Of a DNA stretch of 33,350 nt, positions 528 to 24,684 are shown piece by piece (the first letter of the stretch is position 1; every line of letters starts with the position of its first letter). Location of the stretch: positions 1 through 33,350 of the forward strand of contig JAAXIB010000035.1 in NCBI GenBank assembly GCA_012270585.1. Direction: 5' to 3'. Under the pieces are notes generated by a model, which saw only the letters and a program-made list of their open reading frames with translations, had not been told where the DNA came from and searched no databases. The position numbers were made by a program, and so were the translations under genes. Source of the stretch: Nitrospirales bacterium (GTDB lineage: Bacteria > Nitrospirota > Nitrospiria > Nitrospirales > UBA8639).

Positions 528-1823
528 GACCTCAAAAAGAGGTGGGGTGTAAGCTGACCACGCAGGACAGTCCCCCCAAGGGACACATGCCGACCACATA
601 GAACGCACCTCCTGACAAAATAGTGGATCTACGATGAGACAGGGCATTAAAAAATCGCTGAAACTGCCTCCTCTTCTTGGTCGAATGAGCTTTCTTGTCG
701 GGCCTCGCCCCAGCGTGTGCCCCCCATGAATTCAGCCCCATTGGGGCACTAATCTATGCAATCCTCCCAGTGTTTGTCAAGAATGAAGCAAGCCTGGGGG
801 GCAAAGGCTCCCTGAAGGCGGAAGCCCCCCTTCCTTCGCTCAGTATGACAAATGACTGGATTCCCCTCGGGACATAGCTAAACACTAGGGGAACCACCGA
901 AGAGAAGGGCAGGAGTGTCAACGAATTCGAGAACCTTTACAATCTTCGCGGAGGCATTCGGAGTTTTCGCAAACCAAAGACCGGTTATCTCAGAGCAGGA
1001 CGATTCCGAAATCTTTCTCTGAAAGTAACGTTTTAACTGGCAAAGAATTTAACTGGTCTGGCAGGAAATTCAAAATAGATTGATTTTTCGTCAGAGCTTT
1101 TTTGACGAACTTTAACGGTATGGCTCTCGGATAGTTTCTGCTAACTTGGGGGCAAGAACCAAGGAGAAATTTTTGTTCATCTTGAAATGTAAATAACCCA
1201 TAATCACAAAAAACCACAAACCCTGATACAGACGCTTTGCAAACTTGTTAAAGCAACTATTGTTGTCGAAAGCGGATTGCACGGAATCTACAGCAAGCAA
1301 TGGAATTTCACGGTCATTGACGCACGAAACTCTCCTCTTTCCCCCAACAGCCTACGAGTACTGCAGGCACATACGAAACTCGGCCAAACGGCACCCTGAC
1401 TGAACTCACGGTCGTGGCTTCTCCCTGCCCGGGGGTCTATTTATTGTATGACGCGCCAACATCTGTTGCCAGGGGAGACACATCTTTTCGACGGAAGAGA
1501 CAGGCCCCACTGCGATGGACAGGTGTTGGTCCTGTATGATTGCTCGCCTTGTTTGACGAATTTGTTTCAAAATCCGTCGAGCCTTATGCCCACCAAAGTT
1601 GACATCCCTCAAGCCTCGCGGCGTTTCAAGGAAGAAGTGGAATGTCAGAAGTTTCCCACCGATCAGGAAAGCTATCAGTAAACAGTTTTGGGGTGGGTCT
1701 AAGCGGCCGTCCTGAGCCTCGCCGAAGATGGTGGTCCCATACAGGGAGCTTGACACCCTCCTTTTGATTCAATAAATCTAATAGGACTAATAGGAATTAC
1801 AATGAAGCTTAATATCATTTTAG
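528..1823. other. Long intergenic region without a convincing gene
   Basis: About 1.3 kb with no ORF that looks coding. Short ORFs on both strands lack ribosome-binding sites, recognisable domains and normal protein composition. The stretch 950-1300 is noticeably AT-rich compared with its surroundings. A G-rich/C-rich inverted repeat (GGGGGGC near 797, GCCCCCC near 823) could form a hairpin. Near 842-868 a short TGACAAATGACTGGATTCCC stretch resembles the ends of the dispersed repeat seen at 13832-13912. Around 1708-1728 the text CGTCCTGAGCCTCGCCGAAG looks like a fragment of an intergenic repeat. This region must contain the promoter of the RHS gene, but I could not place it. Confidence 0.5.
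1750..1778 (+). promoter_or_regulatory. Possible sigma70-type promoter upstream of the zinc-ribbon ORF and secretion locus
   Basis: A perfect TTGACA (1750-1755) is followed after 17 bases by TAAATC (1773-1778), a poor match to TATAAT, in an AT-rich setting. It is the only promoter-like signal I noticed ahead of the secretin gene at 2166. Weak evidence. Confidence 0.22.
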
Positions 1824-2165: not shown

Positions 2166-4505
2166 ATGAAGACACGATTGTTTCAATTGCATGGAGTGTG
2201 CCTCCTACTCTGTACCGTCATGGTCTCGTGCAGTTCGGCCACCTCTCACCTCCGATTGGGAGAGGAGATGATCCAACAAGGGAACTGGGACGGGGCCGTG
2301 GCCGCTTATCGCGAGGCCTTGCGCGAAGATCCGTTTAACGACGATATCATAAACGTTTATTCTGAGGCCAAAGTCAAGGCCGCTCAAGCCCATTATGAAA
2401 AGGGGCGGGAATTCCTCAAAACCAAACGGCTTCCAGAAGCCATGCAAGAATTTGAAATCGCCTTGGGTCTCGATCCGACCAAGCCCGAGCACCATGCTGC
2501 GCTTGGTGACGTCGTTCGCCTCAAAGATGCACGACATGCCTTGAAAGATGCCCACAAACTTCTGAACCTTGGCCGTCTCGATGAAGCCATGACCGCCTAT
2601 GAACGAGCCATCGAACTCGATCCCAACCTCACGGAAGCCCTGGAAGGGATCACGGCCGTTGCGCAGCAGCAACAAGCACAGCACGCACTGGGAGGGACCG
2701 CCGAGCCGGTTACCCTTCGGTTTCAAAACGCCAACCTCAAACAGGTTTTCGAAATTCTCGCGCGGACGGCACACCTCAATATTCTTTTCGAAAAAGACAT
2801 GAGCGACCGCCCCGTGACTATTTTCACTCAAGAGACCTCATTCGATGAAGCCCTTAAGTTAATCCTGGCCACGAACCAACTGTTTGCCCGTCCCGTGGCA
2901 CCGGATACGTTACTCATCATCCCGGACACCAAACAAAAACGAGAACAATACCAGGACCTGCAAATCCGAACCTTCTATCTCTCCCATGCCAAGGCAGAAG
3001 ACATGGCCAAGCTATTACGCACCATCCTGGAAACCAAGCGGGCCTACGTAAACGAACCCCTCAACGCGGTGGTCCTGCGGGATCTGCCGGAAAAGCTTCA
3101 GTTAGCCGAACAGATCATCTTCGCCAATGATCAACGGGACTCGGAAGTGGTCTTTGATATCGAAGTGCTGGAGGTGAACCGCACCAAGTCCCGACGCTTG
3201 GGCGCACAATTTGCCAAACAAGCCGGGGCTGGAATTTTTCCCGAAACCGACAACCTGAGCTTCAGCACGAACAGACACGCCTTCACCTTTCAACAATTAA
3301 CAAGCCTTGGGAAAGATTCCTTGCTCTTTACCTTTCCTTCAAGCGTGTTATTGGAATTTTTTAAATCTGAATCCGATGCCAAGATCCTGGCATCTCCGCA
3401 GCTTCGTGTGCTCAACAAGCAAAAAGCCTCGATCAACATTGGCGATAAACAACCAATCCTGCTGTCGACGACCAACGTGAATCCGGGCGTCGGGACGGGC
3501 ACCGTCCCCACAACCTCTACGGCCACGTCGGTTGAATTTAGGGACACGGGAGTCAAGGTAAACGTGGAACCTTCCATTCACCTCACGGGTCAGGTGACCA
3601 TCAAACTCAAGGTTGAAGTCACCCGCTTAGGAGATCAGGTTACCCTTCAAGACAATCCATCGATTACTCAATTTCGGTTCGGCACTCGAACCGCTGAAAC
3701 CACACTCAATCTTCGGGACGGCGAAACCGTGATTCTGGCCGGATTGATTCAAGAAGAAGATCGAAGAACGCAGGATACGATTCCCGGCCTTGACGAGATT
3801 CCCATTGTGGAAGACCTCTTTTTCAAGACCAAGGAAAAGATTCAGACAGAAGTAATGATTGCCATTACACCAAAAATCATTCGATACGTGACACCGCCGA
3901 ACGTGGCGAAACAAACCTTATGGTCGGGCACGGGCACGCACTATGCCACCACACCACTCTTTTCCACACAAGAACAAATTCCGACGCTTGACGTTTCCAT
4001 GGAAAAGCTAGGCCAACTCGAATCGGCTGCTGCCGGGACGCCTCAGGACATGACCCCACAACGAGCCACATCAGCCGGCCCAAACCAAACACGTTCGACC
4101 GCCGGCATCGCCGTCACACCCGATGAAATGATCACCGGACCAGGTCAGTCGATCCAAGTACGCCTTGTTGCGAATTCCTTCCCTGACGTTCGCAATGCCC
4201 AGATAACCGTGACGTATCATCCCGAGCAACTGACATTCGTGAAGGCTCAACCTGGGGATTTTTTCCCGGATCGAGCAGACCGTTCATCTCTTGCGGTTTC
4301 CGTTTCACCGGCTGCCGGAACGATTGTCCTTAAAATTGGTCGAGATAATGTGATGGCCAAGGGGACGGGCGTGCTCGCCGTCCTGACGTTTACCGCGAAA
4401 GGCCAAGGGCAAGCTCCCTTGGTCGTCAAACAATCCACGGTGATCGACGCCTCCGGGCAGACGGTCTCCGTCACGGCCCGACACGGCCTGATCCATATTT
4501 TATAA
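2166..4505 (+). CDS. TPR-secretin-cohesin lipoprotein (GspD/PilQ/MshL family outer-membrane channel)
   Basis: This is the outer-membrane secretin through which a type II secretion or type IV pilus-like machine exports its substrate or fibre. Signal peptide with a lipobox-like end and Cys22 suggests lipidation. Three TPR-like repeats follow (about 28-61, 73-110, 125-158), each with the typical ..A...Y..AL..DP pattern. The small N0/STN-type domain is at about 180-254 (VTLRFQNANLKQVFEIL) and an N1-type domain at about 264-323. The secretin core is at about 325-575, with DIEVLEVNRTKSRRLG, the VEFRDTGVKV strand and the family signature GETVILAGLI near 519-528. After a ~70-residue linker, residues ~645-779 (ITGPGQSIQVRLVANSF, then ITVTYHPEQLTFV) look like a cohesin-type beta-sandwich. 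The 779-residue length fits a secretin plus these additions. It is the first gene of the locus, and the next gene begins one base after the stop. Confidence 0.9.
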   Translation: MKTRLFQLHGVCLLLCTVMVSCSSATSHLRLGEEMIQQGNWDGAVAAYREALREDPFNDDIINVYSEAKVKAAQAHYEKGREFLKTKRLPEAMQEFEIALGLDPTKPEHHAALGDVVRLKDARHALKDAHKLLNLGRLDEAMTAYERAIELDPNLTEALEGITAVAQQQQAQHALGGTAEPVTLRFQNANLKQVFEILARTAHLNILFEKDMSDRPVTIFTQETSFDEALKLILATNQLFARPVAPDTLLIIPDTKQKREQYQDLQIRTFYLSHAKAEDMAKLLRTILETKRAYVNEPLNAVVLRDLPEKLQLAEQIIFANDQRDSEVVFDIEVLEVNRTKSRRLGAQFAKQAGAGIFPETDNLSFSTNRHAFTFQQLTSLGKDSLLFTFPSSVLLEFFKSESDAKILASPQLRVLNKQKASINIGDKQPILLSTTNVNPGVGTGTVPTTSTATSVEFRDTGVKVNVEPSIHLTGQVTIKLKVEVTRLGDQVTLQDNPSITQFRFGTRTAETTLNLRDGETVILAGLIQEEDRRTQDTIPGLDEIPIVEDLFFKTKEKIQTEVMIAITPKIIRYVTPPNVAKQTLWSGTGTHYATTPLFSTQEQIPTLDVSMEKLGQLESAAAGTPQDMTPQRATSAGPNQTRSTAGIAVTPDEMITGPGQSIQVRLVANSFPDVRNAQITVTYHPEQLTFVKAQPGDFFPDRADRSSLAVSVSPAAGTIVLKIGRDNVMAKGTGVLAVLTFTAKGQGQAPLVVKQSTVIDASGQTVSVTARHGLIHIL

Positions 4506-4506
4506 G

Positions 4507-5019
4507 ATGAACAACAAGCATGGCGTGACGTTAATCGAACTCCTGATCACACTGGTGATTATTTTTATTCTTGCGTCGATCGCATTGCCCTTAACCAAGG
4601 TGAATGCCAAGCGCGTCAAAGAATTGGAATTGCGACAGGCCCTGCGAACCATGCGAACGGCAATCGACAATTTCCGAAACGATTGGGCCCGTGACCAGAA
4701 TATCCTGTTGGGGCGACTCTGCGTGAAAAATCAGACTTCGTGTAAAGAATCCACGGGGATCACCGGCTACCCCAAAACCCTCGAAACCTTGTTGGCCATT
4801 GAATTAAGCGGAGCGGAAGCCACCATTGAAGAAGTCAACCCGATTCGCAGGTATCTTCGTCATATTCCTCTCGACCCCGTCACCAATTCAACCGATTGGG
4901 GATTGCGGTGTTATCAGGATGATCCGGATACGGAACGTTGGTGCGGTGAGGACGTCTTCGACGTCTACACGACAAGTAAAAAAACGGCGATTGATGGAAC
5001 CTCGTATCGTGATTGGTGA
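4507..5019 (+). CDS. GspG-like major pseudopilin 1
   Basis: Type II secretion/type IV pilus pseudopilin, expected to be cleaved and N-methylated by a prepilin peptidase and assembled into a periplasmic or surface fibre. A short positively charged leader MNNKHG is followed by VTLIELLITLVIIFILASI. The Gly at -1, Glu at +5 and ~20 hydrophobic residues are the class III prepilin signature; the +1 residue is Val rather than the common Phe or Met. The C-terminal part (HIPLDPVTNSTDWGLRCY, then FDVYTTSKKTAIDGTSYRDW) matches the GspG pattern of a P-x-DPW-type loop and a terminal DG..Y.dW. Two Cys pairs (CVKNQTSC and CYQ..RWC) could form disulphides. It starts one base after the secretin stop. No prepilin peptidase gene is in the window. 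Confidence 0.9.
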   Translation: MNNKHGVTLIELLITLVIIFILASIALPLTKVNAKRVKELELRQALRTMRTAIDNFRNDWARDQNILLGRLCVKNQTSCKESTGITGYPKTLETLLAIELSGAEATIEEVNPIRRYLRHIPLDPVTNSTDWGLRCYQDDPDTERWCGEDVFDVYTTSKKTAIDGTSYRDW

Positions 5020-5029
5020 TGAAGATTAT

Positions 5030-5410
5030 ATGCCGGAATGCCCCAAGGGTTATTCTCTCATCGAGTTAATGATTGTGGTGGCCATTATCGGCATTTTGGT
5101 GGCCCTTGCGGTTCCTTCCTTTCAACAATCGGCTGTGAAAGCGCGAGAGGCGGCATTGAAACAGAATTTACAAACGATACGAACCGTACTCGATCAGCAC
5201 TATGCGGACAAGGGGTTCTACCCTCCATCGCTTGAGATCTTAGTCGAAGTAGGATATCTTCGACAGGTCCCCAGGGACCCTTTCACTGAAACGGCCGATG
5301 CCTGGGTCATAGAATTTGAGGAGAATCCCGACGCGCAAAGCGGTATTTTTGACGTTCACAGTGGCAGCGACGCTCTGAGCACGAACGGCACTCCATACAA
5401 TGAGTGGTAA
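5030..5410 (+). CDS. GspG-like pseudopilin 2
   Basis: A second, shorter GspG-type pseudopilin of 126 residues. I chose ATG 5030 because it gives the compact leader MPECPKG directly before YSLIELMIVVAIIGILVAL, with Gly at -1 and Glu at +5. The same frame extends upstream over the previous gene, but that would give a very long leader. The body carries the GspG landmarks PRDPFTETADAWVIEF and a terminal SGSDALSTNGTPYNEW, close in pattern to the end of pseudopilin 1. The start lies 10 bases after the stop of pseudopilin 1, so the two are surely co-transcribed. Tandem GspG paralogues could be a major and a modified subunit of one fibre; that is inference. Confidence 0.88.
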   Translation: MPECPKGYSLIELMIVVAIIGILVALAVPSFQQSAVKAREAALKQNLQTIRTVLDQHYADKGFYPPSLEILVEVGYLRQVPRDPFTETADAWVIEFEENPDAQSGIFDVHSGSDALSTNGTPYNEW

Positions 5411-6203
5411 CAGCTTTTGCCATACGGAGGTGAGCCTGGCTTTTCGATCATGCGTCTTCGGCACGGCATTGCTTCTGCTCGGGTGTTTTCAGCAACCCAA
5501 GGAGGTTGTTTCCCCTAGCCTTCCCTCTACACCGCCGAGCCGGACGACCCTCATGACGGAAGCACTCGCAGAAGCCGAGGACCTCAGAACCGCCATGGCT
5601 GCAGAACGCATCAAAGCGGCCAAACAGACCGCGACGCTTCGTACGGCCCACAATCAGGTTTCCGCCCTACGAAATCGTGAAATCGAACACGTGGCAACTA
5701 TCGCAAATCTCGAAAAAGCATTGTCAATGGTCAAGACGGAACGCGACGAACTTCAAAAGGAAGTCGCCGAACTCCGCGTCCAAGCGGAAAACGTCCCGCA
5801 ACTCCTGAAAATGGTCGCCCACGTTCGTATCCTGGAAACCTCCCTGAAAGGGATGGTGTCATCCATTGACGCCCTCTCAAATGAGACGGCTCAACTCAAG
5901 AAACAAATTAAACAACAACGGGCCACGGCGGTGAATACTCAAAGATCCATACCATCCGGCCAAGCGGAGCATGGGCTTCACACCGAGGATAGAGACTTCA
6001 TCGTGGTCAAACGGGGAGATTCCCTGTGGCGACTGGCCCATCGCTACGGCACAACGGTAGCCGAACTCAAAACCCTAAATGACCTTGATCGTGACTTGAT
6101 CCTCGTCGGACAATTACTCAGAATTTCCTCTCCTGCGCAATCCCTTGACGAACCAGATCCCGTTGAGTCCTTGAAAACAAAAAACCAACCTCACGACGAA
6201 TAA
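5400..6203 (+). CDS. Coiled-coil LysM lipoprotein of the secretion locus
   Basis: A predicted lipoprotein with a hydrophobic leader ending ALLLLGC (Cys29 as the lipid site). Residues ~50-175 are a long charged heptad-like coiled coil (ALAEAEDLRTAMAAER, then LEKALSMVKTERDELQKEV). The C-terminal LysM domain is at about 200-242 (FIVVKRGDSLWRLAHRYG, ending LILVGQLLRI). LysM binds peptidoglycan glycan strands, so this protein probably ties the secretion machine to the cell wall in the periplasm, comparable in role to LysM proteins such as FimV in pilus systems. The ATG at 5400 overlaps the pseudopilin gene by 11 bases. An in-frame GTG at 5430 would give a tidier 18-residue lipoprotein signal, but its GGAGG lies too close, so the start is unsettled. 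Confidence 0.82.
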   Translation: MSGNSFCHTEVSLAFRSCVFGTALLLLGCFQQPKEVVSPSLPSTPPSRTTLMTEALAEAEDLRTAMAAERIKAAKQTATLRTAHNQVSALRNREIEHVATIANLEKALSMVKTERDELQKEVAELRVQAENVPQLLKMVAHVRILETSLKGMVSSIDALSNETAQLKKQIKQQRATAVNTQRSIPSGQAEHGLHTEDRDFIVVKRGDSLWRLAHRYGTTVAELKTLNDLDRDLILVGQLLRISSPAQSLDEPDPVESLKTKNQPHDE

Positions 6204-6215
6204 GGCAAGGTCCCC

Positions 6216-7421
6216 ATGCCGCAGTTTCACTACCGAGCCGCTCGAAGTGACGGAAGTATCGTCGAAGGGAAGACGAATGGTCTGAGTGAGTCAGCGGTTC
6301 GATCGGAACTGGAAACTCAAGGGCTTTTTGTTTTTCAACTTAAAGGCTCCAACATTTGGCGGGATGCGACCGTGGCATGGAAACGTAGAGGCCACATTCC
6401 CCTACGGGACTTTTTGATCTTCAACCAGCAGTTCGTCACGTTGGTGAAGGCAGGATTGCCGATTTTGCGAACATTCGATCTGCTCACCGAACGAGCAGTC
6501 AATCCGACGTTCCGGAAAACCTTGGAAGAGGTACGCGAGGGCATCAGGGGCGGCGCTTCCATCTCCGATGCCATGGGTGCGCAGCCGCACTTTTTTCCGG
6601 AATTATATCGGGCCACGATTCAATCCGGCGAACATACCGGCAATCTCATCGACGTCCTTCAGCGTTATATCGCGTATATCAAACTCTTGATCGCCATCAG
6701 GGAAAAAGTGGGCAAAGCCTTGGCCTATCCTGCTTTTCTGATGGTCCTTGGAATAGGTGTGGTTGCCTTTTTGATGATTTTCGTGATCCCCACGTTTGTT
6801 GACGTGTACGCCCAGAGCAACGCCAGCCTGCCGGGGCCGACGCAAACGCTCCTCGACCTCGTGACCAGTGCGGTGCTTTGGGGGCCATGGGCTATTGGAA
6901 TCTTTCTCCTTTCAGGAATCGGAGGCTGGCTTTGGTCAAAAACGGAACAAGGGCAATACCAGATACATCACGTGCTCCTCACGTTCCCACTCATCGGCGG
7001 CATCGTGTCCAATAATCAAATCATCCGGCTGTCAAGAACCCTGGTCACGATTCTTGCCGGCGGGCTTCCTCTCCTCACCGCGCTTTCAATGACCACCAAT
7101 GCCATGACCAATAAAGTATTTTCCCGAGCGCTGGTTCGTGCGACCTCGCGAGTACGAGAAGGCATGGGCCTTGCCGCTTCTCTCAAAGAAGAACGATTTC
7201 TACCCCGCATGACGGTAGAAATGATTGAGGTCGGGGAATTGACCGGAGCGCTCGAATCCATGCTCGAAGAAGTGGCTGACTTCCATGAAAGTGAAATCGA
7301 CGTCTACCTGAATCAATTGAATTGGCTGGAGCCGATCTTGCTCCTCTTCATGGGCATACTCGTCGGAGGCATCGTGGTGATCATGTATCTGCCGATTTTC
7401 AATATTGCGGGAACACTTTAA
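6216..7421 (+). CDS. GspF/PilC-family inner-membrane platform protein
   Basis: The polytopic inner-membrane platform that couples the assembly ATPase to pseudopilin insertion. The 401-residue length is normal for GspF/PilC/MshG. The N-terminus FHYRAARSDGSIVEGKTNG is the family's opening. Two T2SF domains follow, about residues 65-190 (FNQQFVTLVKAGLPILRTFDLL) and 270-392 (LSRTLVTILAGGLPLLTALS), each ahead of a membrane segment: about 165-195 (YPAFLMVLGIGVVAFLMIFVIP), a second near 215-240, and a C-terminal one (LEPILLLFMGILVGGIVVIMYLPIF). The start ATG at 6216 lies 12 bases after the LysM gene. The stop is 13 bases before the likely ATPase start. Confidence 0.93.
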   Translation: MPQFHYRAARSDGSIVEGKTNGLSESAVRSELETQGLFVFQLKGSNIWRDATVAWKRRGHIPLRDFLIFNQQFVTLVKAGLPILRTFDLLTERAVNPTFRKTLEEVREGIRGGASISDAMGAQPHFFPELYRATIQSGEHTGNLIDVLQRYIAYIKLLIAIREKVGKALAYPAFLMVLGIGVVAFLMIFVIPTFVDVYAQSNASLPGPTQTLLDLVTSAVLWGPWAIGIFLLSGIGGWLWSKTEQGQYQIHHVLLTFPLIGGIVSNNQIIRLSRTLVTILAGGLPLLTALSMTTNAMTNKVFSRALVRATSRVREGMGLAASLKEERFLPRMTVEMIEVGELTGALESMLEEVADFHESEIDVYLNQLNWLEPILLLFMGILVGGIVVIMYLPIFNIAGTL

Positions 7422-7434
7422 CCTCGCACGTCTC

Positions 7435-9174
7435 ATGGCAACCCCCGTCAAACGATCCTCGCTTGAAGAGATTCTCGTGACGCGAAACGTGCTCACGTCG
7501 GAGCAGCTTGCAGAGGCGGTTCGCCAAGCGCGAACCGACCATCGTCCGCTCTCGAACGTCCTGTTGGAGAACGGATTGCTCACGGAAGATTACTTGGCCC
7601 GGGCCGTGGCCGATCAATATGACCTCCCCTATGATCCGCTGTATGAATATCGCGTCGCCCCGGAGTTTTTTTCGCTGATCCCCGTGGAATGGATGCATCG
7701 TCTGCCCTTCGTCCCTCTTTCCGACGAGGACGGACTGTTAACCATTGCCGTTGCCGACCCGCACGATCTCAAAGCTGTTGATGAACTTGAAATCGTACTG
7801 GATCGTGAAATCCGTTTGGTCGTCTCGACAAAAGCAGCGATTGAGGATGGACTGGCAGTCAGTGAAGGCAACAAGCAAATGCTCACGCGCATTCAGAAGG
7901 AACTCCATCCCGTTCTGGTCACGGAAGATGAGCTGGGCGAAGAAGTCCTGTCCGTCGAACGGATTACGAAAGATCAAAGCCCGGTCGTTAAGCTGGTGGA
8001 TACCATTATCCTAAGCGCGCTCCAAAAACAGGCCAGCGACGTTCACATTGAAGCGGGGGAACAAGGCGTCGAGGTGAAATTTCGAATCGATGGCGTCCTG
8101 TATCAGGCCATGGATCCGTTGTCGTCCTCCGTGCACAATGCCTTGATCTCCCGACTCAAAATCATGTCCGAACTGGATATCTCCGAACGGCGCATTCCCC
8201 AGGACGGCCGTTTCAAACTCCATGTGGAAAAACGGACCATAGATTTCCGAGTCTCGATCCTGCCCAGTGTCCATGGCGAAGCCGTGGTTATTCGGGTTCT
8301 GGACAAACAGCATATCGCCACGGGAGTCAGAGGATTACAATTGGACTTATTGGGATATGTTCCGGAAGACCTCCGCCGGTTTCGACGCGCCATTACCCGA
8401 CCGTACGGGATGGTGCTCGTCACCGGCCCGACCGGCAGCGGGAAAACCACAACGCTCTATGGTGCATTGAATGAGGTCCATACGCCTGAAGATAAGATCA
8501 TCACCATCGAAGATCCCGTCGAATATCAACTGCAGGGAATCGTGCAAATCCCGATCAATGAAAAAAAGGGACTTACGTTCGCCCGGGGACTCCGTTCAAT
8601 CCTGCGCCACGACCCCGATAAAATCATGGTGGGTGAGATTCGGGACGCGGAAACCGCCCAGATCGCCATTCAATCGGCCCTAACCGGTCACTTGGTCTTT
8701 ACGACCGTACACGCCAACAATGCCTTCGACGTAATTTCTCGATTCGTCAACATGGGCATCGAACGATACAATTTTGTTTCTTCCTTGAATTGTATCCTTG
8801 CCCAGCGATTAGTCCGCACCGTTTGTCCATATTGCAAGGCCGAGGTCAAAGTGGACCCGGAATTCTGTCAAAACCTGGGAATCGATTTTGAGAAAGCCCA
8901 ACGGATCACCTTCTATGAAGGGCAGGGTTGTTATGAATGCAACGGCCTGGGCTACAAAGGGCGACGAGCGATTACGGAATTTTTGGATTTCACCGATACT
9001 ATAAAAGAAATGATTTTAGCCGGCCGGTCATCGTCGGAAATTCGTACCGCTGCCTATGTCCAAGGCACGACGACGCTACGGCAGGCCGCGGTGCAAAAAG
9101 TCATTGATGGAGAAACCACGCTTCGAGAAATCAATCGTGTCACTCCAATAGAAGAAGCCGCTAACGACGAATGA
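7435..9174 (+). CDS. GspE/PilB-family assembly ATPase
   Basis: The cytoplasmic hexameric ATPase that powers fibre assembly. Numbered from ATG 7435 (579 residues), an N-terminal MshEN/GspE-N-type domain covers about 1-140 (LEEILVTRNVLTSEQLAEAV). The Walker A motif GPTGSGKTT is at about 331-339, the Walker B-region IMVGEIRDAETA from about 397, and the His-box LTGHLVFTTVHANNAF just after. The zinc-binding tetracysteine is CPYC (464-467) with CYEC (499-502), as in GspE/PilB. These motifs make it an extension ATPase rather than a PilT-type retraction ATPase. A TTG at 7405 would add 10 residues and overlap the platform gene. I prefer ATG 7435, though no strong Shine-Dalgarno is visible for either. 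The stop overlaps the next start as ATGA. Confidence 0.93.
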   Translation: MATPVKRSSLEEILVTRNVLTSEQLAEAVRQARTDHRPLSNVLLENGLLTEDYLARAVADQYDLPYDPLYEYRVAPEFFSLIPVEWMHRLPFVPLSDEDGLLTIAVADPHDLKAVDELEIVLDREIRLVVSTKAAIEDGLAVSEGNKQMLTRIQKELHPVLVTEDELGEEVLSVERITKDQSPVVKLVDTIILSALQKQASDVHIEAGEQGVEVKFRIDGVLYQAMDPLSSSVHNALISRLKIMSELDISERRIPQDGRFKLHVEKRTIDFRVSILPSVHGEAVVIRVLDKQHIATGVRGLQLDLLGYVPEDLRRFRRAITRPYGMVLVTGPTGSGKTTTLYGALNEVHTPEDKIITIEDPVEYQLQGIVQIPINEKKGLTFARGLRSILRHDPDKIMVGEIRDAETAQIAIQSALTGHLVFTTVHANNAFDVISRFVNMGIERYNFVSSLNCILAQRLVRTVCPYCKAEVKVDPEFCQNLGIDFEKAQRITFYEGQGCYECNGLGYKGRRAITEFLDFTDTIKEMILAGRSSSEIRTAAYVQGTTTLRQAAVQKVIDGETTLREINRVTPIEEAANDE

Positions 9175-10340
9175 AACTCTTTCCGTTTACTCGCCCACGA
9201 ACGGGCCTCTATTTTTCTACGGATACTCTCTGCGTTGGCCATCTCCGGCACGGACTGGGAGGCCCAACGCTGGGGAGTTACCGGGAACAATCTCTTCCTA
9301 CGGGCTCCATCCGCCTGTCCCCGATTGAGCAGAACGTCGCTTGCTCCGAGCACCTTCTCTCGGCTTTGCACTCAACCTTTCCTCCAACCCGGCACCCCCA
9401 TTCAGTTGCCGTGTGTCTTCCGGACTCGTGTGCCCGAACGGCGGTATTTGAATTCGCATCTCTACCGAAAAACAAACAAGACCAAAAGGCGTTGGTGGAG
9501 TGGCGGCTGCAAAAAGAGTTGAACCTCTTGCCGAAACCGCGACGGGTGTCTTATCAACGCTTTGGCACCATGCCATCCCGGTTCTCACTCACGCGTTCGC
9601 CATCCACGCCGATTCGCTTCCTGGTCGTGGCGTTTCAAAACGATATTGTCGAACAGTACGAAACCCTCTGTGTAGAGTCGGGAGTCATTCCCGTATCAAT
9701 CAACGTTGCCGGGCTGGCAGTCTTCAACCTGTGCCGACCGGTCATTGAATCGACCCTACAACAACACCCGCGTGATGTTTCGTTTGTCCCCGACACAGTC
9801 ATTTTTTTGTACGTCGGGGATTGGGGATTTTCGTTGATCGTATGGAATGAGGGCCAACCGTGTTTTGTTCGAGTGAAACCCCTCAAGCGGCTTTCCACGG
9901 TGATGGTCTTACCATCTCAAGCCCTCATCAAAGAGACGCCGGCCAGCCCGAGTTCCCAAGCAGGGTCAAGCGAGCAAACGACGTCCCGTGAACCCGACGA
10001 CTTCGACTCGCCTCGGGACCGGGAGCCGACATCACTGCTTGCCGAAGAACTGCTGGGAAGTTTGCAATTCTTCTTTGAAACCGCGGCACCGCCGGAACAT
10101 CGAGCCCCCGTCTATCCCCTTTTTCTCGTCGGCGGTCCGCAACCTGAAATCATGCTTCCCCGGATTGCCGAAACCATTGAGCGGGCATTTCCACTGAATA
10201 AGGAGACCGACGTCCCTCAAATCAAGGCCTTTCCCATGTTTCCTCAGAATCCTGCGGTGCAGGCCAAGACCCTCTCGGCTCTCCCCCAATGGACAGGCAC
10301 GACGTTAGCCACGATCGCTGCGGGGTATCTTCCTTCATGA
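9171..10340 (+). CDS. PilM/GspL-like cytoplasmic actin-fold protein
   Basis: A PilM-type protein of 389 residues that should sit on the cytoplasmic face and bind the short tail of the PilN-like protein that follows. The sequence is divergent. Recognition rests on position (between the ATPase and PilN), length, and the pattern of an N-terminal GLYFSTDTLCVGHLRHG, the VEWRLQKELNLLP segment typical of PilM/MshI, and the SVAVCLPDS and FLVVAFQNDIVEQYETLC stretches. There is no membrane segment, so it resembles PilM or MshI rather than full-length GspL. A ~50-residue Ser/Pro/Glu-rich insertion (about 255-288) interrupts the fold. It starts by an ATGA overlap with the ATPase gene and ends by one with the next gene, so translation is probably coupled. 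Confidence 0.72.
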   Translation: MKLFPFTRPRTGLYFSTDTLCVGHLRHGLGGPTLGSYREQSLPTGSIRLSPIEQNVACSEHLLSALHSTFPPTRHPHSVAVCLPDSCARTAVFEFASLPKNKQDQKALVEWRLQKELNLLPKPRRVSYQRFGTMPSRFSLTRSPSTPIRFLVVAFQNDIVEQYETLCVESGVIPVSINVAGLAVFNLCRPVIESTLQQHPRDVSFVPDTVIFLYVGDWGFSLIVWNEGQPCFVRVKPLKRLSTVMVLPSQALIKETPASPSSQAGSSEQTTSREPDDFDSPRDREPTSLLAEELLGSLQFFFETAAPPEHRAPVYPLFLVGGPQPEIMLPRIAETIERAFPLNKETDVPQIKAFPMFPQNPAVQAKTLSALPQWTGTTLATIAAGYLPS

Positions 10341-10927
10341 AGCTTCCTCGTCTTCACTTGCCGTTGACGGCACCAGGCTTAGCTGGCATGAAATATTTGC
10401 AAATCCTCTTAGCCGCTGTCAGCGTGCTGTTGCTGCTCACAAGTATTTGGCTTTGGAATACAGCACACAACGTTGAAGACCACATGGCAGAATTGGAAAC
10501 AGCCATCGTTCAAGCCCATAACGCTTACCGGAAGTTTCGACACCAATCGGAAACAGAGGGCTTCGATTTATCACCGGCTCGACTCCAAGTCCTTCGCCAA
10601 GAAGTTACACTTGCGAAGCAAGTGATCCGACGTCAACGTTTCTCATGGACACGGCTTCTTAATGATCTGGAACGCGCGATCCCTCACCGCATTTCCCTAG
10701 AATCCATCGTATTGAACAAAGAGTTCCTAGCGTTGAGCGGAGCAGCCTTGACCTTACAGGATTTGACAACCTTCGTGGACCGCTTAAAAAACCATCCCGC
10801 CTTTCAAAACGTCGAAATATCGAGTCATACATCACAACAGAGGCCCGGAAATATCAAAACTGGCCCCGCAAGCTTTATTGCGTTTGACTTGGCAATATCC
10901 TATGACCCTTCACGGAATTCAGGGTAA
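10337..10927 (+). CDS. PilN-like inner-membrane protein
   Basis: A bitopic membrane protein of 196 residues in the PilN position. A short cytoplasmic N-terminus (MKLPRLHLPLTAPGLAG) precedes one membrane helix at about 20-42 (YLQILLAAVSVLLLLTSIWL). A helical periplasmic stretch follows, then the ferredoxin-like region typical of PilN: FSWTRLLNDLERAIPHRISL, ALSGAALTLQDLTTFVDRL and FQNVEISSHTS. I chose ATG 10337 because it overlaps the PilM stop as ATGA and puts the conserved N-terminal tail just before the helix; an upstream in-frame ATG at 10289 would sit deep inside pilM. The protein should pair with the PilO-like protein to link the cytoplasmic complex to the periplasm. Confidence 0.78.
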   Translation: MKLPRLHLPLTAPGLAGMKYLQILLAAVSVLLLLTSIWLWNTAHNVEDHMAELETAIVQAHNAYRKFRHQSETEGFDLSPARLQVLRQEVTLAKQVIRRQRFSWTRLLNDLERAIPHRISLESIVLNKEFLALSGAALTLQDLTTFVDRLKNHPAFQNVEISSHTSQQRPGNIKTGPASFIAFDLAISYDPSRNSG

Positions 10928-11105
10928 CCGCAACACAAATGGCGACCCACTTACCCTCAAGACAGAAACGCTTTGCCGGTGTACTGTGCTTCTACCGCAT
11001 TGGCCTTCCGAGCGAAGCGAGGAATCTCAGGTCCATGAACCGGCTCACAAAAAACCTTTTACTTTCTCGTGACGTTCGGGAAGGAGCCGCACGACGCGTT
11101 TCAGC
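10928..11105. repeat. 178-bp gap inside the operon carrying a repeat-like fragment
   Basis: All other junctions in this operon overlap or are spaced by at most 13 bases, but the pilN-pilO junction is 178 bases. It includes CCGAGCGAAGCGAGGAATCT (11008-11027), a phrase typical of dispersed intergenic repeats. I see no ORF in it. It looks like an insertion of a repeat fragment between formerly coupled genes. Confidence 0.4.
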
Positions 11106-11678
11106 ATGAATAACCCTTTCTCGTTTTCCACGACCGCGACCAAAACCCTTCGGTTCTTACAGCCCATCATGTTCCTAGCCATTGCCGTCCTGTTGGGCTG
11201 CATGGCAATCTATGTCGGTCTTGTCCTCCCAACGCAAGAACGGCTGGCAAAAACACGGGAAACCTTGAACGCACTTCGCCAGCAACACCTCTCTGAAGAA
11301 ACAGCCAAAACAACCCAGCAAGTCTTGAGTCGATTCTGGCAGGATCTGCCGACCCAACAGGAGTTCACGCACTTGGGTGTCCAGATCAGCACGCTTGCGA
11401 AACAAAACAAGGTCACAATCCCCGGCATGGATTACCAAGTCCAGGCATCGAAAAAGAAGATGGCTCCCAGGGGCTCGATCACCTTTCAAGCGCTTGGATC
11501 GTATGACGCAATCCGCCGCTTTATCTATCAACTGGAAAAAACCGGACCCTATTTGATTATTAAAAAATTAACGGCAGAACGAATCAAGAAAACGGATCAC
11601 GTGGCCTTTACGTTGCAAATCGTGACGTTTTTCCGGCCCCCATCGTTCCATGCAGGAGCGAAAGAGATGACCTCGTGA
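11106..11678 (+). CDS. PilO-like inner-membrane protein
   Basis: A bitopic protein of 190 residues. A short N-terminus is followed by a membrane helix at about 20-41 (IMFLAIAVLLGCMAIYVGLVLP) and a coiled coil (~43-85, ERLAKTRETLNALRQQHLSEE). The periplasmic ferredoxin-like domain shows the PilO patterns FTHLGVQISTLAKQNKVTIPGMDYQ, then ITFQALGSYDAIRRFIYQLEKTGPYLIIKKLTAE. PilO dimerises with PilN and contacts PilP in type IV pilus and MSHA-like systems; GspM is the type II secretion counterpart. The stop overlaps the next gene's GTG as GTGA. No good Shine-Dalgarno precedes ATG 11106 (a GGAAGGAG lies ~20 bases upstream), which fits the altered 5' junction. Confidence 0.8.
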   Translation: MNNPFSFSTTATKTLRFLQPIMFLAIAVLLGCMAIYVGLVLPTQERLAKTRETLNALRQQHLSEETAKTTQQVLSRFWQDLPTQQEFTHLGVQISTLAKQNKVTIPGMDYQVQASKKKMAPRGSITFQALGSYDAIRRFIYQLEKTGPYLIIKKLTAERIKKTDHVAFTLQIVTFFRPPSFHAGAKEMTS

Positions 11679-12283
11679 GTCGTCAAAGAGAGAAAACCTT
11701 ATTGCTAGTAGGCGGCGTCCTAATTGTCTGTACCATGGCTTTCTCGGAATGGCTGGAACCTCCGAATCCGTCAAGTCCGCCACTCCACGCCGGGCAGCCC
11801 ATGAACAATCCGCCTGTCCCTCAATCCGGGTTTGCCCTAAACTTTCCGGAAGCCAAGCGAACGACGACCTTGAAAAATTCAAGAAATATTTTCGCCCCCC
11901 TTAAAAACCCCGTCGCACCCAAAAACGTCCAAGTTTCCACCAAAACGCCTGATCCCATCACATTCCCACCCATCCCCTCACCCATCCCCTCACCCACCGC
12001 CGCAACCGGTCCTTCGCCCGCAGAGGTGGCAACCAGACAAGCCAAAGAAGCAATGCAGCAATACAAATTTCTCGGCTATCTGACGAAGGAAGGCGTACGG
12101 CAAGGGTTTTTGAGCAAAAATGAAACGATTTACATTGTCAAAGAGGGCGAAACCTTGGAGAAGGGCATTACCATTCAGTCCATAGACCCCACGGAAGTCG
12201 TCCTTTCCAGACACGTCAAGCAAACCGGCACAACGGTCGAAGCCACCCTGTCATTAACAAAAAACAAACAAGATGCATCATAA
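11675..12283 (+). CDS. PilP/GspC-like periplasmic linker protein
   Basis: The last gene of the locus, 202 residues, starting at GTG 11675 inside the pilO stop. An N-terminal membrane segment (LLLVGGVLIVCTMAFS) lacks a lipobox Cys in the normal place, so it seems anchored like GspC rather than lipidated like classical PilP. A Pro/Ser-rich linker (PPIPSPIPSPTAATGPSP, about 97-114, coded by short tandem CCCATCCCCTCA units) precedes a compact C-terminal domain: YKFLGYLTKEGVRQGFLSKN, YIVKEGETLEKGITIQSID, VVLSRHV. That beta-rich pattern matches the PilP and GspC homology regions that dock onto the secretin N0 domain. It would complete the bridge from the PilN/PilO complex to the TPR-secretin. Confidence 0.72.
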   Translation: MSRQREKTLLLVGGVLIVCTMAFSEWLEPPNPSSPPLHAGQPMNNPPVPQSGFALNFPEAKRTTTLKNSRNIFAPLKNPVAPKNVQVSTKTPDPITFPPIPSPIPSPTAATGPSPAEVATRQAKEAMQQYKFLGYLTKEGVRQGFLSKNETIYIVKEGETLEKGITIQSIDPTEVVLSRHVKQTGTTVEATLSLTKNKQDAS

Positions 12284-20451: not shown

Positions 20452-21579
20452 TCACCAGTTCACCTGATAGAAGACACCAACGCGTGAATGGGTACGACCC
20501 GGTTCATGCCCGGCGTCCCACGCATGAGCTGCGCTGAACACGCTCCGACCGGGACCTATCGGCGTCTCATGCGTGAAGGCAACGGCAACCTCTCGACCTT
20601 CCGGAGCCAGGGACACCGTTGCATGGTCGTAGTACTGAGCCCCGTCCCTGAGGCCTGCGAGATACGTGAACCTCCCGCGCCCCGATTCCGCACGCAACGG
20701 TTGAGACACCGAGAGCCGCGACCACGTGCCATGCCCGCGCTCTCCACGTTCGATACCAAGATCCCACGACGACAGGGCATGAGTATCAATATCCAACATG
20801 CTCCCGGATTGAAGAAACACGCGCCCGAGTGCCATCGTCGCAGAGGCTCTTACCGTCCACTCATCGTTGATGGCAATTCTACTGCCACGCCCGACCCAGG
20901 CCGTCATGGAACGCACCCGATCCCCGAAGGCGCCGGAGGCCTGCCCGCCCTGCCACGAGGCACCGTCCCACAACATGCCCCACCGGAACCCGTCAGAGGG
21001 CGCGCGTTCCAGGCCGATCCGGTCCTGACCGAGCAGGAACTGAACGCCGTTCACGGCCATCGGTCCGTCTACGGTCCCTGGGGTGAATCCCAGATGCAGA
21101 GCCCCGCGGTTCCTGGACTCCGGCTCGACAAACGTGGGGATTGCCAGGGTGGGGAGCCACGTCGTATACACGAACTGCTCAGGCGTCGACCAGAAGGGTG
21201 CACCCAAATCGTCCAGACTCGCCACTTCGACCCCGCTCGCCGCAAGCCGGTGCCCAAAGGCGCCCATGGCCGCGGGCATCCGCAACCCCGTGACCATCGC
21301 ATCCCCGTTCCGCGACGGGGTGCCGGTGACGAGGGTCCCCACGGGCTGCAACGCCGCCCGGAGATCCAGTAACCCGGCTCCATAGATTTCAAGTTGGGCG
21401 TAGCGCCCTCTGTTATTGGCCGTGTTCACCACACGCTTGACGATTTCGGTATTTCCGAGTTGCCCTCGGAAGTGCTCCATGAGCAGCGCAATCGCCCCGG
21501 TGACCACCGGCGCCGCGAACGACGTGCCAGGTGTTTCGTGTTTAACCTCGCCTTTGCCACCACTCCCGGCTGCATTCAC
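20452..21579 (-). CDS. S8 autotransporter protease, C-terminal part: catalytic Ser and beta-barrel (split gene)
   Basis: The second part of a split subtilisin-type autotransporter, 375 residues if read from GTG 21579. GTSFAAPVVTGAIALLMEHF (Ser20) is the S8 catalytic serine motif, followed by GNTEIVKRVVNTANN and YGAGLLDLRAAL, which close the protease domain. From about residue 75 the sequence is beta-rich with alternating hydrophobics (MTAWVGRGSRIAI, FTYLAGLRDGAQYYDHATVSL) and ends VGVFYQVNW, with an aromatic final residue as in outer-membrane barrels. Upstream in this frame, codons for TALAAPGLVNAAGSGG continue the protease domain before the GTG, so this is the natural continuation of the other part rather than an independent gene. 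GTG overlaps the upstream TGA, so coupled translation is conceivable. Confidence 0.82.
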   Translation of the reverse strand: MNAAGSGGKGEVKHETPGTSFAAPVVTGAIALLMEHFRGQLGNTEIVKRVVNTANNRGRYAQLEIYGAGLLDLRAALQPVGTLVTGTPSRNGDAMVTGLRMPAAMGAFGHRLAASGVEVASLDDLGAPFWSTPEQFVYTTWLPTLAIPTFVEPESRNRGALHLGFTPGTVDGPMAVNGVQFLLGQDRIGLERAPSDGFRWGMLWDGASWQGGQASGAFGDRVRSMTAWVGRGSRIAINDEWTVRASATMALGRVFLQSGSMLDIDTHALSSWDLGIERGERGHGTWSRLSVSQPLRAESGRGRFTYLAGLRDGAQYYDHATVSLAPEGREVAVAFTHETPIGPGRSVFSAAHAWDAGHEPGRTHSRVGVFYQVNW

Positions 21580-23081
21580 CAGCCCCGGTGCCGCCAGCGC
21601 TGTGCATCCCAGTCCGATGGGAGTGCCCCGCAGAAATTCGTGTAGTCGGCGTGGCGTCCGTCGTGATCCAACGCCATGACCGACAGATGATGGCCCCTCA
21701 CATGGGGTTCATAGAAAGGAATTTGTGCTCCACTCAGATGCCCCAAATCTGCGCTATCGTTGCCCGCTGCATACACTACCACCGTTCGATCATCGGGGTG
21801 TATTCCCGTCTGCATGTATGCTCGCCAATATCTCGGAAGGATATTCCGCAACTCATTCCCCCACCAGTCTGATGCCGCATCCTGAAGCTCCAAAATCGAC
21901 GCTCCATCGATGAGTGGGATCCCATAGCTCCGGTTGATCACGTCGTACTTGGCGTAGTCCGACTGAATTTGCTCTGCCAAGTCGGCATCAAGCTTCTCTC
22001 GCTCTCCTCTAGGCAACCCTTTGACCCATTGAAGGAGTGTCTGTTCCGCCTTGCTTTGATCATGCTGTCCCGAGCTAAAGTCCGTGGCGATCGGAATGAT
22101 CGTCGCACCAGGGGCCACTCCAAAATCCCGACCCGCGGCCACCGAGGCCACGATCGTCCCATGGTCATTGATGCCAGTTACATGTGGAATCTTTGTCCAT
22201 CGGAACAAACCGCCCTCCTCATGGGCATCGTTACGGAGGTACCAGTTTTCTCCCTCTTCCGGCCATCCATAGTTGGCAACGACCCACCGCACTGCCAGCG
22301 TATCGATCTGATCCGGTGAAAGCGCCTCACTATCATCACCGTATTCGAATGCATACGAAAACACCTCGCATCCAGGCGACGCAAAGACGCTCCCCTGCTC
22401 ACAGAGCTTGGAGTCCGAGAAAGGATCATCTCCATAGGGGACCGGATAAGTCAGTTTTGCCCCGTCGAACGAGATGCGTCCGGCAAACTCGGGAAGCTGA
22501 TAGTTGACGATACTGTCTTCAATCGCGATACGCACCCCTTTCCCTGTGAGTCCCTTTGCATAGGCATGATGCACTCCAACCATTTCCAGCACATGCGGCT
22601 GAAAGACCGTGAACCGCTCGTTACTCAGGAAGCTTGTCGGCGAACAGTACTGCGTACCGCACCGGGCAATCTGGTCTCTGACCGCGAATGAATCGAACTG
22701 CGCCTCATAGTCGTTCTTGTATTGTTCCAGCCAAATGGCACCAATTTCCCACGCCTTCTCCGCTTCCTCGACTTCCCGGACTTGCCAAAAATGCGCGTTA
22801 CTCCATTTATTCCATTCGTCCACGGCCGCATTGACATTCCACCATGCGTTGTTCAGAGCATCGGGATCGCCACTCAACTCGACCGCACTGAAGGCTTGCT
22901 CTGCCTTCTGCAAGTCCACTTCCGCGGCGTTCAGGGAGGTCTCAATTCCCGCAAGGGTGGTTTCCCGGCTCTTCACGCCAGCCTGATACTCCGCAGGTCC
23001 GATTGCCTGAGCGTATCCGGAACGTGTACCCAGGAATAACACACACACTACAAATACGATGATCGTGCCAGTCCGCAACAT
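21576..23081 (-). CDS. S8 autotransporter protease, N-terminal part: signal peptide, catalytic Asp and His (split gene)
   Basis: The first part of the split protease, 501 residues. Signal peptide (TIIVFVVCVLFLGTRSGYA, cleavage before QAIGPAEY). Residues ~28-130 are a helical, coiled-coil-like region rich in Glu and Trp that is not part of the usual protease domain and may be a propeptide. The S8 domain then begins: GKGVRIAIEDSIV (Asp189), INDHGTIVASVAAG (His307), VVVYAAGND (oxyanion Asn441). The last conserved block is YTNFCGALPSDWD at about 480-492; after it the frame reads AQRWRHRGW and stops. The sister frame (-1 relative to this one) continues with TALAAPGLVNAAG, as expected of the family, so the frame change lies near 21605-21625. 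No Ser motif is present in this part, so it could not be active alone. Confidence 0.83.
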   Translation of the reverse strand: MLRTGTIIVFVVCVLFLGTRSGYAQAIGPAEYQAGVKSRETTLAGIETSLNAAEVDLQKAEQAFSAVELSGDPDALNNAWWNVNAAVDEWNKWSNAHFWQVREVEEAEKAWEIGAIWLEQYKNDYEAQFDSFAVRDQIARCGTQYCSPTSFLSNERFTVFQPHVLEMVGVHHAYAKGLTGKGVRIAIEDSIVNYQLPEFAGRISFDGAKLTYPVPYGDDPFSDSKLCEQGSVFASPGCEVFSYAFEYGDDSEALSPDQIDTLAVRWVVANYGWPEEGENWYLRNDAHEEGGLFRWTKIPHVTGINDHGTIVASVAAGRDFGVAPGATIIPIATDFSSGQHDQSKAEQTLLQWVKGLPRGEREKLDADLAEQIQSDYAKYDVINRSYGIPLIDGASILELQDAASDWWGNELRNILPRYWRAYMQTGIHPDDRTVVVYAAGNDSADLGHLSGAQIPFYEPHVRGHHLSVMALDHDGRHADYTNFCGALPSDWDAQRWRHRGW

Positions 23082-24040: not shown

Positions 24041-24328
24041 TTATTGTATGGATTGTTTCAGGCTGCGGTAAAAATTTTCATGCGTGCCGATCGCCAGCAA
24101 TGTAAGAGTGAGCGTATGGCCTTCGTAGATATAGGCAAGCAAGGCGAGTTGTTTGGCCATTTTGAACTTGTAAACGCGCACTCCGGCCAAGTCTCCTACT
24201 TTGGCTTCACCAACATGTGGGGCAGCCATAATCACGTTCACAGCCTCATCAAGGTCGCGCTTCTGGTTGGTGTGCAACTTTTTTACCGCCTTACGAAAAG
24301 TGGTTGTCTGCAGGACCTGCATGTTCAC
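24041..24328 (-). CDS. RelE/ParE-superfamily toxin of a type II toxin-antitoxin pair
   Basis: A 95-residue protein of the RelE/ParE fold: VLQTTTFRKAVKKLHTNQKRDLDEAVNVIMA (helical hairpin), PHVGEAKVGDLAGVRVYKFKMAKQLALLAYIYEG and LTLTLLAIGTHENFYRSLKQ, each a recognisable strand or helix of the family. Such toxins cleave ribosome-bound mRNA or inhibit gyrase; the sequence does not say which. The GTG at 24328 overlaps the antitoxin stop (GTGA). An ATG two codons later (24322) is an alternative start. The order antitoxin then toxin is the usual one. Confidence 0.85.
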   Translation of the reverse strand: MNMQVLQTTTFRKAVKKLHTNQKRDLDEAVNVIMAAPHVGEAKVGDLAGVRVYKFKMAKQLALLAYIYEGHTLTLTLLAIGTHENFYRSLKQSIQ

Positions 24329-24543
24329 CCAAACTCATACGGTGTTACCTCTTTATCGACAACTTCCTGTCTGGCAATAAGAATGTCCTTGATAAAACGA
24401 TAGGGCAAGTCAGGATTTTCCTCGGCAAGTTTGCCTATACGAAACCAGTATTCGATCTGCTTGGGCGCAGAACGGCTATACACATCGCCGTAGCGACGTG
24501 CCGCAGCAATTACTTCGTCTGAAAGCTTGATGGTTGTTGACAT
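24325..24543 (-). CDS. ParD-like antitoxin
   Basis: A 72-residue antitoxin. STTIKLSDEVIAAARRYGDVYSRSAPKQIEYWFRIGKLAEENPDLP is the ribbon-helix-helix-like DNA-binding pattern of the ParD_like group, and IKDILIARQEVVDKEVTPYEFG is the toxin-wrapping tail. I chose ATG 24543 because AGGAG lies eight bases upstream and the family starts here; the frame is open 18 codons further upstream. It probably represses its own operon from the region 24544-24684. The pair lies between REPs 3/4 and REP 5. Confidence 0.82.
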   Translation of the reverse strand: MSTTIKLSDEVIAAARRYGDVYSRSAPKQIEYWFRIGKLAEENPDLPYRFIKDILIARQEVVDKEVTPYEFG

Positions 24544-24684
24544 ATTTTGACTCCTTTTGAAACTCAAAGTTTTAATATATGCCAAAAGGCGTATCATTGC
24601 AACCTATTGGCAGCATCTCATCCAGTCCTTGTTGTCGGGGACAAGCGTCGGGGATTATTGGCCCCACAAATTAACAGCCTAATC

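Follow-up and report, generated by a model that had tools for sequence, protein, structure and literature searches.

A conserved type II secretion-like locus of Nitrospirales, probably a pseudopilus-driven exporter of the Geobacter Pul/Oxp type

The window (the whole stretch of 33,350 nucleotides that was analysed) is all of contig 56 in a 2.5 Mb Nitrospirota genome. Ten co-directed, intact ORFs are found at positions 2166-12283, in the order D-G1-G2-LysM-F-E-M-N-O-P and with the coordinates first listed for them (Table 1).

Table 1. Features of the locus. The start column is filled only where the probable start differs from the start of the listed ORF.
Feature	Description	Position	Strand	Basis	Start
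D	Secretin lipoprotein: lipobox Cys22, TPR repeats, Secretin_N, secretin, C-terminal cohesin	2166..4505	+	Pfam/NCBIfam, family alignment	
G1	GspG-like pseudopilin, leader MNNKHG/VTLIE	4507..5019	+	N_methyl 8e-8; GspG best match	
G2	GspG-like pseudopilin, leader MPECPKG/YSLIE	5030..5410	+	N_methyl 2e-7, T2SSG 0.001, GspG TIGR01710 2e-13	Probably 5030 (read from the sequence); listed ORF begins upstream, at 4826
LysM	Lipoprotein: coiled coil, C-terminal LysM	5400..6203	+	LysM 6e-13	
F	GspF/PilC-type inner-membrane platform protein	6216..7421	+	T2SSF 1.5e-52; GspF 316 bits, cut-off 424; tree	
E	Assembly ATPase with MshEN domain	7405..9174	+	T2SSE 1.6e-134	Probably 7435 (from the sequence)
M	PilM-type cytoplasmic protein	9171..10340	+	Family profile against PilM structures	
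N	PilN-type protein	10337..10927	+	PilN 2.8e-11	Probably 10337 (from the sequence), giving a 4-base overlap with M; listed ORF from 10289
O	PilO/GspM-type protein	11106..11678	+	PilO 9e-6, T2SSM 1e-4	
P	PilP/GspC-like protein: N-terminal membrane anchor, proline-rich linker, conserved RNIF motif	11675..12283	+	Profile, alignment	
tenA remnant	Decayed tenA-like remnant left of the locus	1205..1469	+	73.9% DNA identity to tenA of contig 34	

The combination of GspG-type pseudopilins with a PilM-PilN-PilO-PilP-type inner complex, the latter as in the type IVa pilus, had been proposed in the first-pass annotation and is borne out by domain calls and by the family profiles of M and P. As single sequences, M and P have no confident Pfam match. 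The M family profile matches PilM of Myxococcus xanthus (3jc8, 9e-24) and another PilM structure (2ych, 2e-19), and PilM_2 is detected in 5 of 19 family members; the P family profile matches PilP (4av2, 3e-7; 2ivw, 7e-7). P has no lipobox (by eye) and starts with a membrane segment; GspC likewise begins with one. The two GspG-like genes and the cohesin-bearing secretin of that annotation are also present: N_methyl is found in G1 and G2, and their best NCBIfam match is GspG TIGR01710 (30 and 51 bits; equivalog cut-off 89). The window contains no PilT, minor pseudopilin or prepilin peptidase, as had been reported, and no further pilin. Two local features were seen. A gap of about 180 bp with repeat-like sequence (10928-11105) separates N from O, which are adjacent in relatives; a tandem repeat with a 12-base unit (11967-11996) lies within the proline-rich linker of P.

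D consists of TPR repeats, Secretin_N, secretin (5e-36) and cohesin (2e-11) domains. The lipobox Cys22 is invariant among 22 family members; at 1e-3, the secretin domain is detected in all of them, TPR repeats in 21 and the cohesin domain in 12. Similarity of the TPR part to Tgl and PilW, both pilotin lipoproteins, suggests, at the level of sequence, that the pilotin is built in. Capture of substrates by cohesin-dockerin pairing is rejected: dockerin (PF00404) is absent from this genome and was found in 2 of the 9 genomes searched.

The gene between the pseudopilin and platform genes, singled out earlier as a LysM lipoprotein, is conserved at the locus in Nitrospirales: the LysM domain is present in 18/18 aligned proteins, and the lipobox Cys29 is invariant in the 18 loci. 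It was not recognised at related loci outside Nitrospirales. TsaP is a LysM protein with a secretin-anchoring role in the type IVa pilus (PMC8811193), and GspB is given as an example of the cell-wall anchoring of secretins (PMC9239104).

A strong match to the secretin was counted by hand from the match table (E < 1e-70) in 65 of 198 Nitrospirota genomes. The survey of gene order proposed in the first-pass annotation gave two arrangements. The order seen in the window is conserved across Nitrospirales; other Nitrospirota have E-M-N-O-P-D-G1-G2, with a third pseudopilin often coming next. Nearly every related locus contains a G1 orthologue. Plasmid replicons of Aliiroseovarius, Aquabacterium and Janthinobacterium have the same set and, behind G2, a third pseudopilin; on Cupriavidus and Paraburkholderia replicons D, E, G1 and G2 can be recognised. 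The locus is thus a real, intact and conserved system, and not a one-off hybrid. Some loci have notable neighbours. Second, partial copies with no recognised G1 or F occur in three genomes (L050, L052 and L054, in G127, G112 and G094), two of them (L050, L054) near RHS-repeat genes, and RHS and FG-GAP genes border the locus on the Janthinobacterium plasmid (L083). These RHS and FG-GAP genes are possible candidate substrates or mere neighbours.

Comparison with reference sets, also proposed earlier, was carried through with trees of the ATPase and the platform protein. The 20 ATPases from such loci form one group on a long stem, apart from GspE and PilB (SH-aLRT 99); when the set was cut down to 18 and its longest outside branches were left out, the same clade was obtained (SH-aLRT 100). 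The clade unites E of the locus with the ATPases of similar loci in other Nitrospirota and on alpha- and betaproteobacterial plasmids. The F tree agrees, with weaker support (91-94). Both are quick trees without bootstrap, in which the placement of long branches, Aliiroseovarius among them, is less sure. D and E fall under all NCBIfam equivalog or subfamily cut-offs for GspD, PilQ, MshL, GspE and PilB (E: PilB TIGR02538, 575 bits, cut-off 676; GspE TIGR02533, 538 bits, cut-off 630. D: GspD TIGR02517, 146 bits, cut-off 351; MshL TIGR02519, 97 bits, cut-off 250). The claim that the system stands apart from classical Gsp, T4aP and MSHA is upheld by the separate ATPase clade and by these scores. 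On sequence grounds, the supposed hybrid is more aptly seen as a separate lineage, widespread but little studied, and sister of the classical systems.

The third pseudopilin, G3, is a conserved pilin without Glu5. It follows G2 at many of the loci that lie outside the main Nitrospirales set, and it matched no Pfam family. Among the genomes searched, 12 locus-bearing ones gave a strong profile match. In Nitrospirales loci G3 is upstream of D in the family of the source genome and downstream of P in the sister family. In the source genome, a profile search places it on contig 34, directly after an intact tenA (the two together at about 49.0-50.3 kb; tenA at about 7.0-7.7 kb in stretch L230). Counting this displaced G3 along with G1 and G2 of the window, the system has three pseudopilins and is not short of a third; the idea that the LysM lipoprotein replaces G3 is rejected.

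In other genera of the source family the order is tenA-G3-D...P-nosD-coaE. The left flank of this ancestral locus is on contig 34 and the right flank on contig 56. Transposase-like genes were seen by eye near the end of contig 34; the split of the locus and the break in the assembly are probably due to an insertion. For the source family, the locus is an ancestral feature. It is missing in 13 of the 14 genomes of the source genus: in most genus mates examined tenA adjoins nosD, with neither G3 nor the ten genes between them. In a tree of four flanking genes the source genome is nested inside the genus, which implies either several losses or regain of the block by this genome. The GC content of the block is slightly lower (0.525 versus 0.55) and, together with the tenA remnant, keeps the option of regain open. 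Contamination of the metagenome-assembled genome is rejected: the flanking CoaE occurs in a single copy that shares 82-89% identity with CoaE of the closest genus mates, and other genera show the tenA-locus-nosD-coaE order too.

Other pilus-type parts are dispersed in the genome. Two PF00437 proteins are encoded, E of the locus and an ATPase on contig 16 that groups with PilB in the tree; both are of assembly type, and this search found no PilT in the whole genome. A scan of genome contigs with the D secretin gave one distant match; one other secretin is present, on contig 22. A second PilN gene is on contig 47; locus-bearing genomes have two PilN genes, and genus mates without the locus have one. 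A second pilus-type system is scattered over contigs 16, 22, 47, 55 and 77 (L013, L014, L015, L016, L231), without PilT. The search for a second locus supplying peptidase and minor pseudopilins, proposed earlier, found a single prepilin peptidase (PF01478) in the genome, on contig 55, which must be common to the locus and the other system. It lies beside three minor-pilin-like genes. The one tested, GspH-like, is present in 14/14 genus genomes, including the 13 that lack the locus. The three are rejected as dedicated parts of the locus, and the cluster probably serves mainly the other, dispersed system.

The locus is probably a complete, non-retracting, T2SS-like exporter of protein, driven by a pseudopilus, from a lineage apart from classical Gsp and likely of the type of the Geobacter Pul/Oxp "atypical T2SS". 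Gene content, conservation, lineage and the lack of PilT were read directly from the genomes; the export step, the substrate and the role of the LysM lipoprotein are given here as predictions. E would power the addition of G1, G2 and the Glu5-less G3 onto F. M-N-O-P would form an inner alignment ring docked to the N domains of D, and the pseudopilus would push a folded periplasmic protein through D. The lipid anchor and TPR domain of D may stand in for a separate pilotin. Anchoring of the secretin to peptidoglycan is probably the task of the LysM lipoprotein, by analogy with TsaP or GspA/B. The prepilin peptidase of contig 55 would process pilins for both systems. Export is the best-supported function, judging from composition, the lack of PilT and the resemblance to Geobacter Pul. 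The joint absence of G3 and the locus, at the collapsed tenA-nosD site of genus mates, speaks for it; the absence of minor pseudopilins H, I, J and K from the locus speaks against it.

The Geobacter Pul order F-E-M-N-O-P-Q-OxpG-PulG is presumably that of the non-Nitrospirales loci described here. Like the locus, the Geobacter system has three pseudopilins; the Nitrospirales locus differs in its permuted order, in the position of G3 (upstream of D or downstream of P) and in the added LysM lipoprotein. The Pul/Oxp system, an atypical T2SS found in Geobacter and Pelobacter, has the pseudopilins PulG, OxpG and TklG and is needed for OmpB export (PMC3543383); the known substrate there, OmpB, is of multicopper oxidase type. 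The letters P and Q in pulGPQF (PMC10599522) imply PilP/PilQ-type parts. By composition and published description, the locus is most probably of the same kind; going by that description, Pul/Oxp may be a subtype already characterised, in which the gene order agrees and the substrate is established. The unorthodox T2SS of Ralstonia solanacearum, likened here by description, has compact clusters, each of seven core genes, alongside a classical Gsp system (PMC5080846); the related loci on Cupriavidus, Paraburkholderia, Aquabacterium and Janthinobacterium replicons are part of this likeness.

A surface pilus, serving adhesion or electron transfer and not protein secretion, is unlikely, although it would account for the pilus-type M-N-O-P and MshEN-containing E; some pili lack a retraction ATPase of their own, and a short surface pilus would need nearly the same parts, which counts against the exporter reading. 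The type IVa pilus with TsaP shares with the locus a PilMNOP-type inner complex and a LysM protein that, by analogy, possibly anchors the secretin. Unlike that pilus, the locus has no PilT, its pseudopilins are GspG-like and its ATPase is outside the PilB clade. Against a pilus also stand the protein export by the best described likely relative (PMC3543383) and the lack of an adhesin or PilY1-like gene among the locus ORFs and the flanking genes scanned.

Loading of cargo onto outer-membrane vesicles is very unlikely. It is proposed by likeness to the non-canonical T2SS-like translocon of Shewanella vesiculosa HM13, whose reduced cluster has a similar layout: G2-E2-F2, several pilins, four unnamed genes and D2, with the extra pilins and unnamed genes near the secretin (PMC6971210). 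Compared by description, that cluster differs from the locus in having a GspK-like gene and a gene for vesicle cargo; no P49-like neighbour was recognised at the locus.

It is highly improbable that the locus is a plain classical T2SS, T4aP or MSHA member with shuffled genes. Every core part is homologous to those systems and, as in classical Gsp, GspE, GspF, GspG and secretin homologues would serve export by a pseudopilus. However, the ATPases form a separate, long-stemmed clade outside GspE and PilB (support 99-100), and D, E and F are below the NCBIfam cut-offs. No GspL fusion is found at the locus, M and N being separate genes; the secretin is a TPR-cohesin lipoprotein; GspH, I, J, K and PilT are lacking. 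A DNA-uptake pseudopilus, for which a secretin with PilMNOP-type parts and the Pelobacter pul sets near DNA-uptake genes (PMC3543383) could be cited, is highly improbable as well: no competence gene was recognised in the flanks examined and the genome lacks PilT.

The exporter reading connects the Nitrospirota locus to an experimentally implicated Geobacter system. It also supplies a testable putative exporter for a phylum whose nitrifiers matter in the environment and about whose secreted proteins little is known. In surveys of the type IV filament superfamily, many systems are classed as "generic" (PMC6668835). It is possible, as a tentative extension, that the loci are an unnamed, separate branch of that superfamily: an eleven-gene exporter of Nitrospirota and Pseudomonadota whose lipoprotein secretin pilots itself. 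Geobacter Pul would be at most one member of this branch, and the nitrite-oxidiser order would have added a dedicated peptidoglycan clamp to the exporter. A clade with a consistent part list, compositionally between T2SS and T4aP, bears on the origin of secretion systems from pili.

Two other features of the window are on the minus strand. A subtilase (S8) gene (20452-23081) is in two overlapping frames and has an autotransporter-like C-terminus by eye; it is absent between the 394-aa gene and putA in the genus mates G203 and G198 (L171, L183). It is an unlikely substrate of the exporter, because of the apparent frameshift split and the autotransporter-like end. Two small overlapping genes (24041-24603) are toxin-antitoxin-like by eye.
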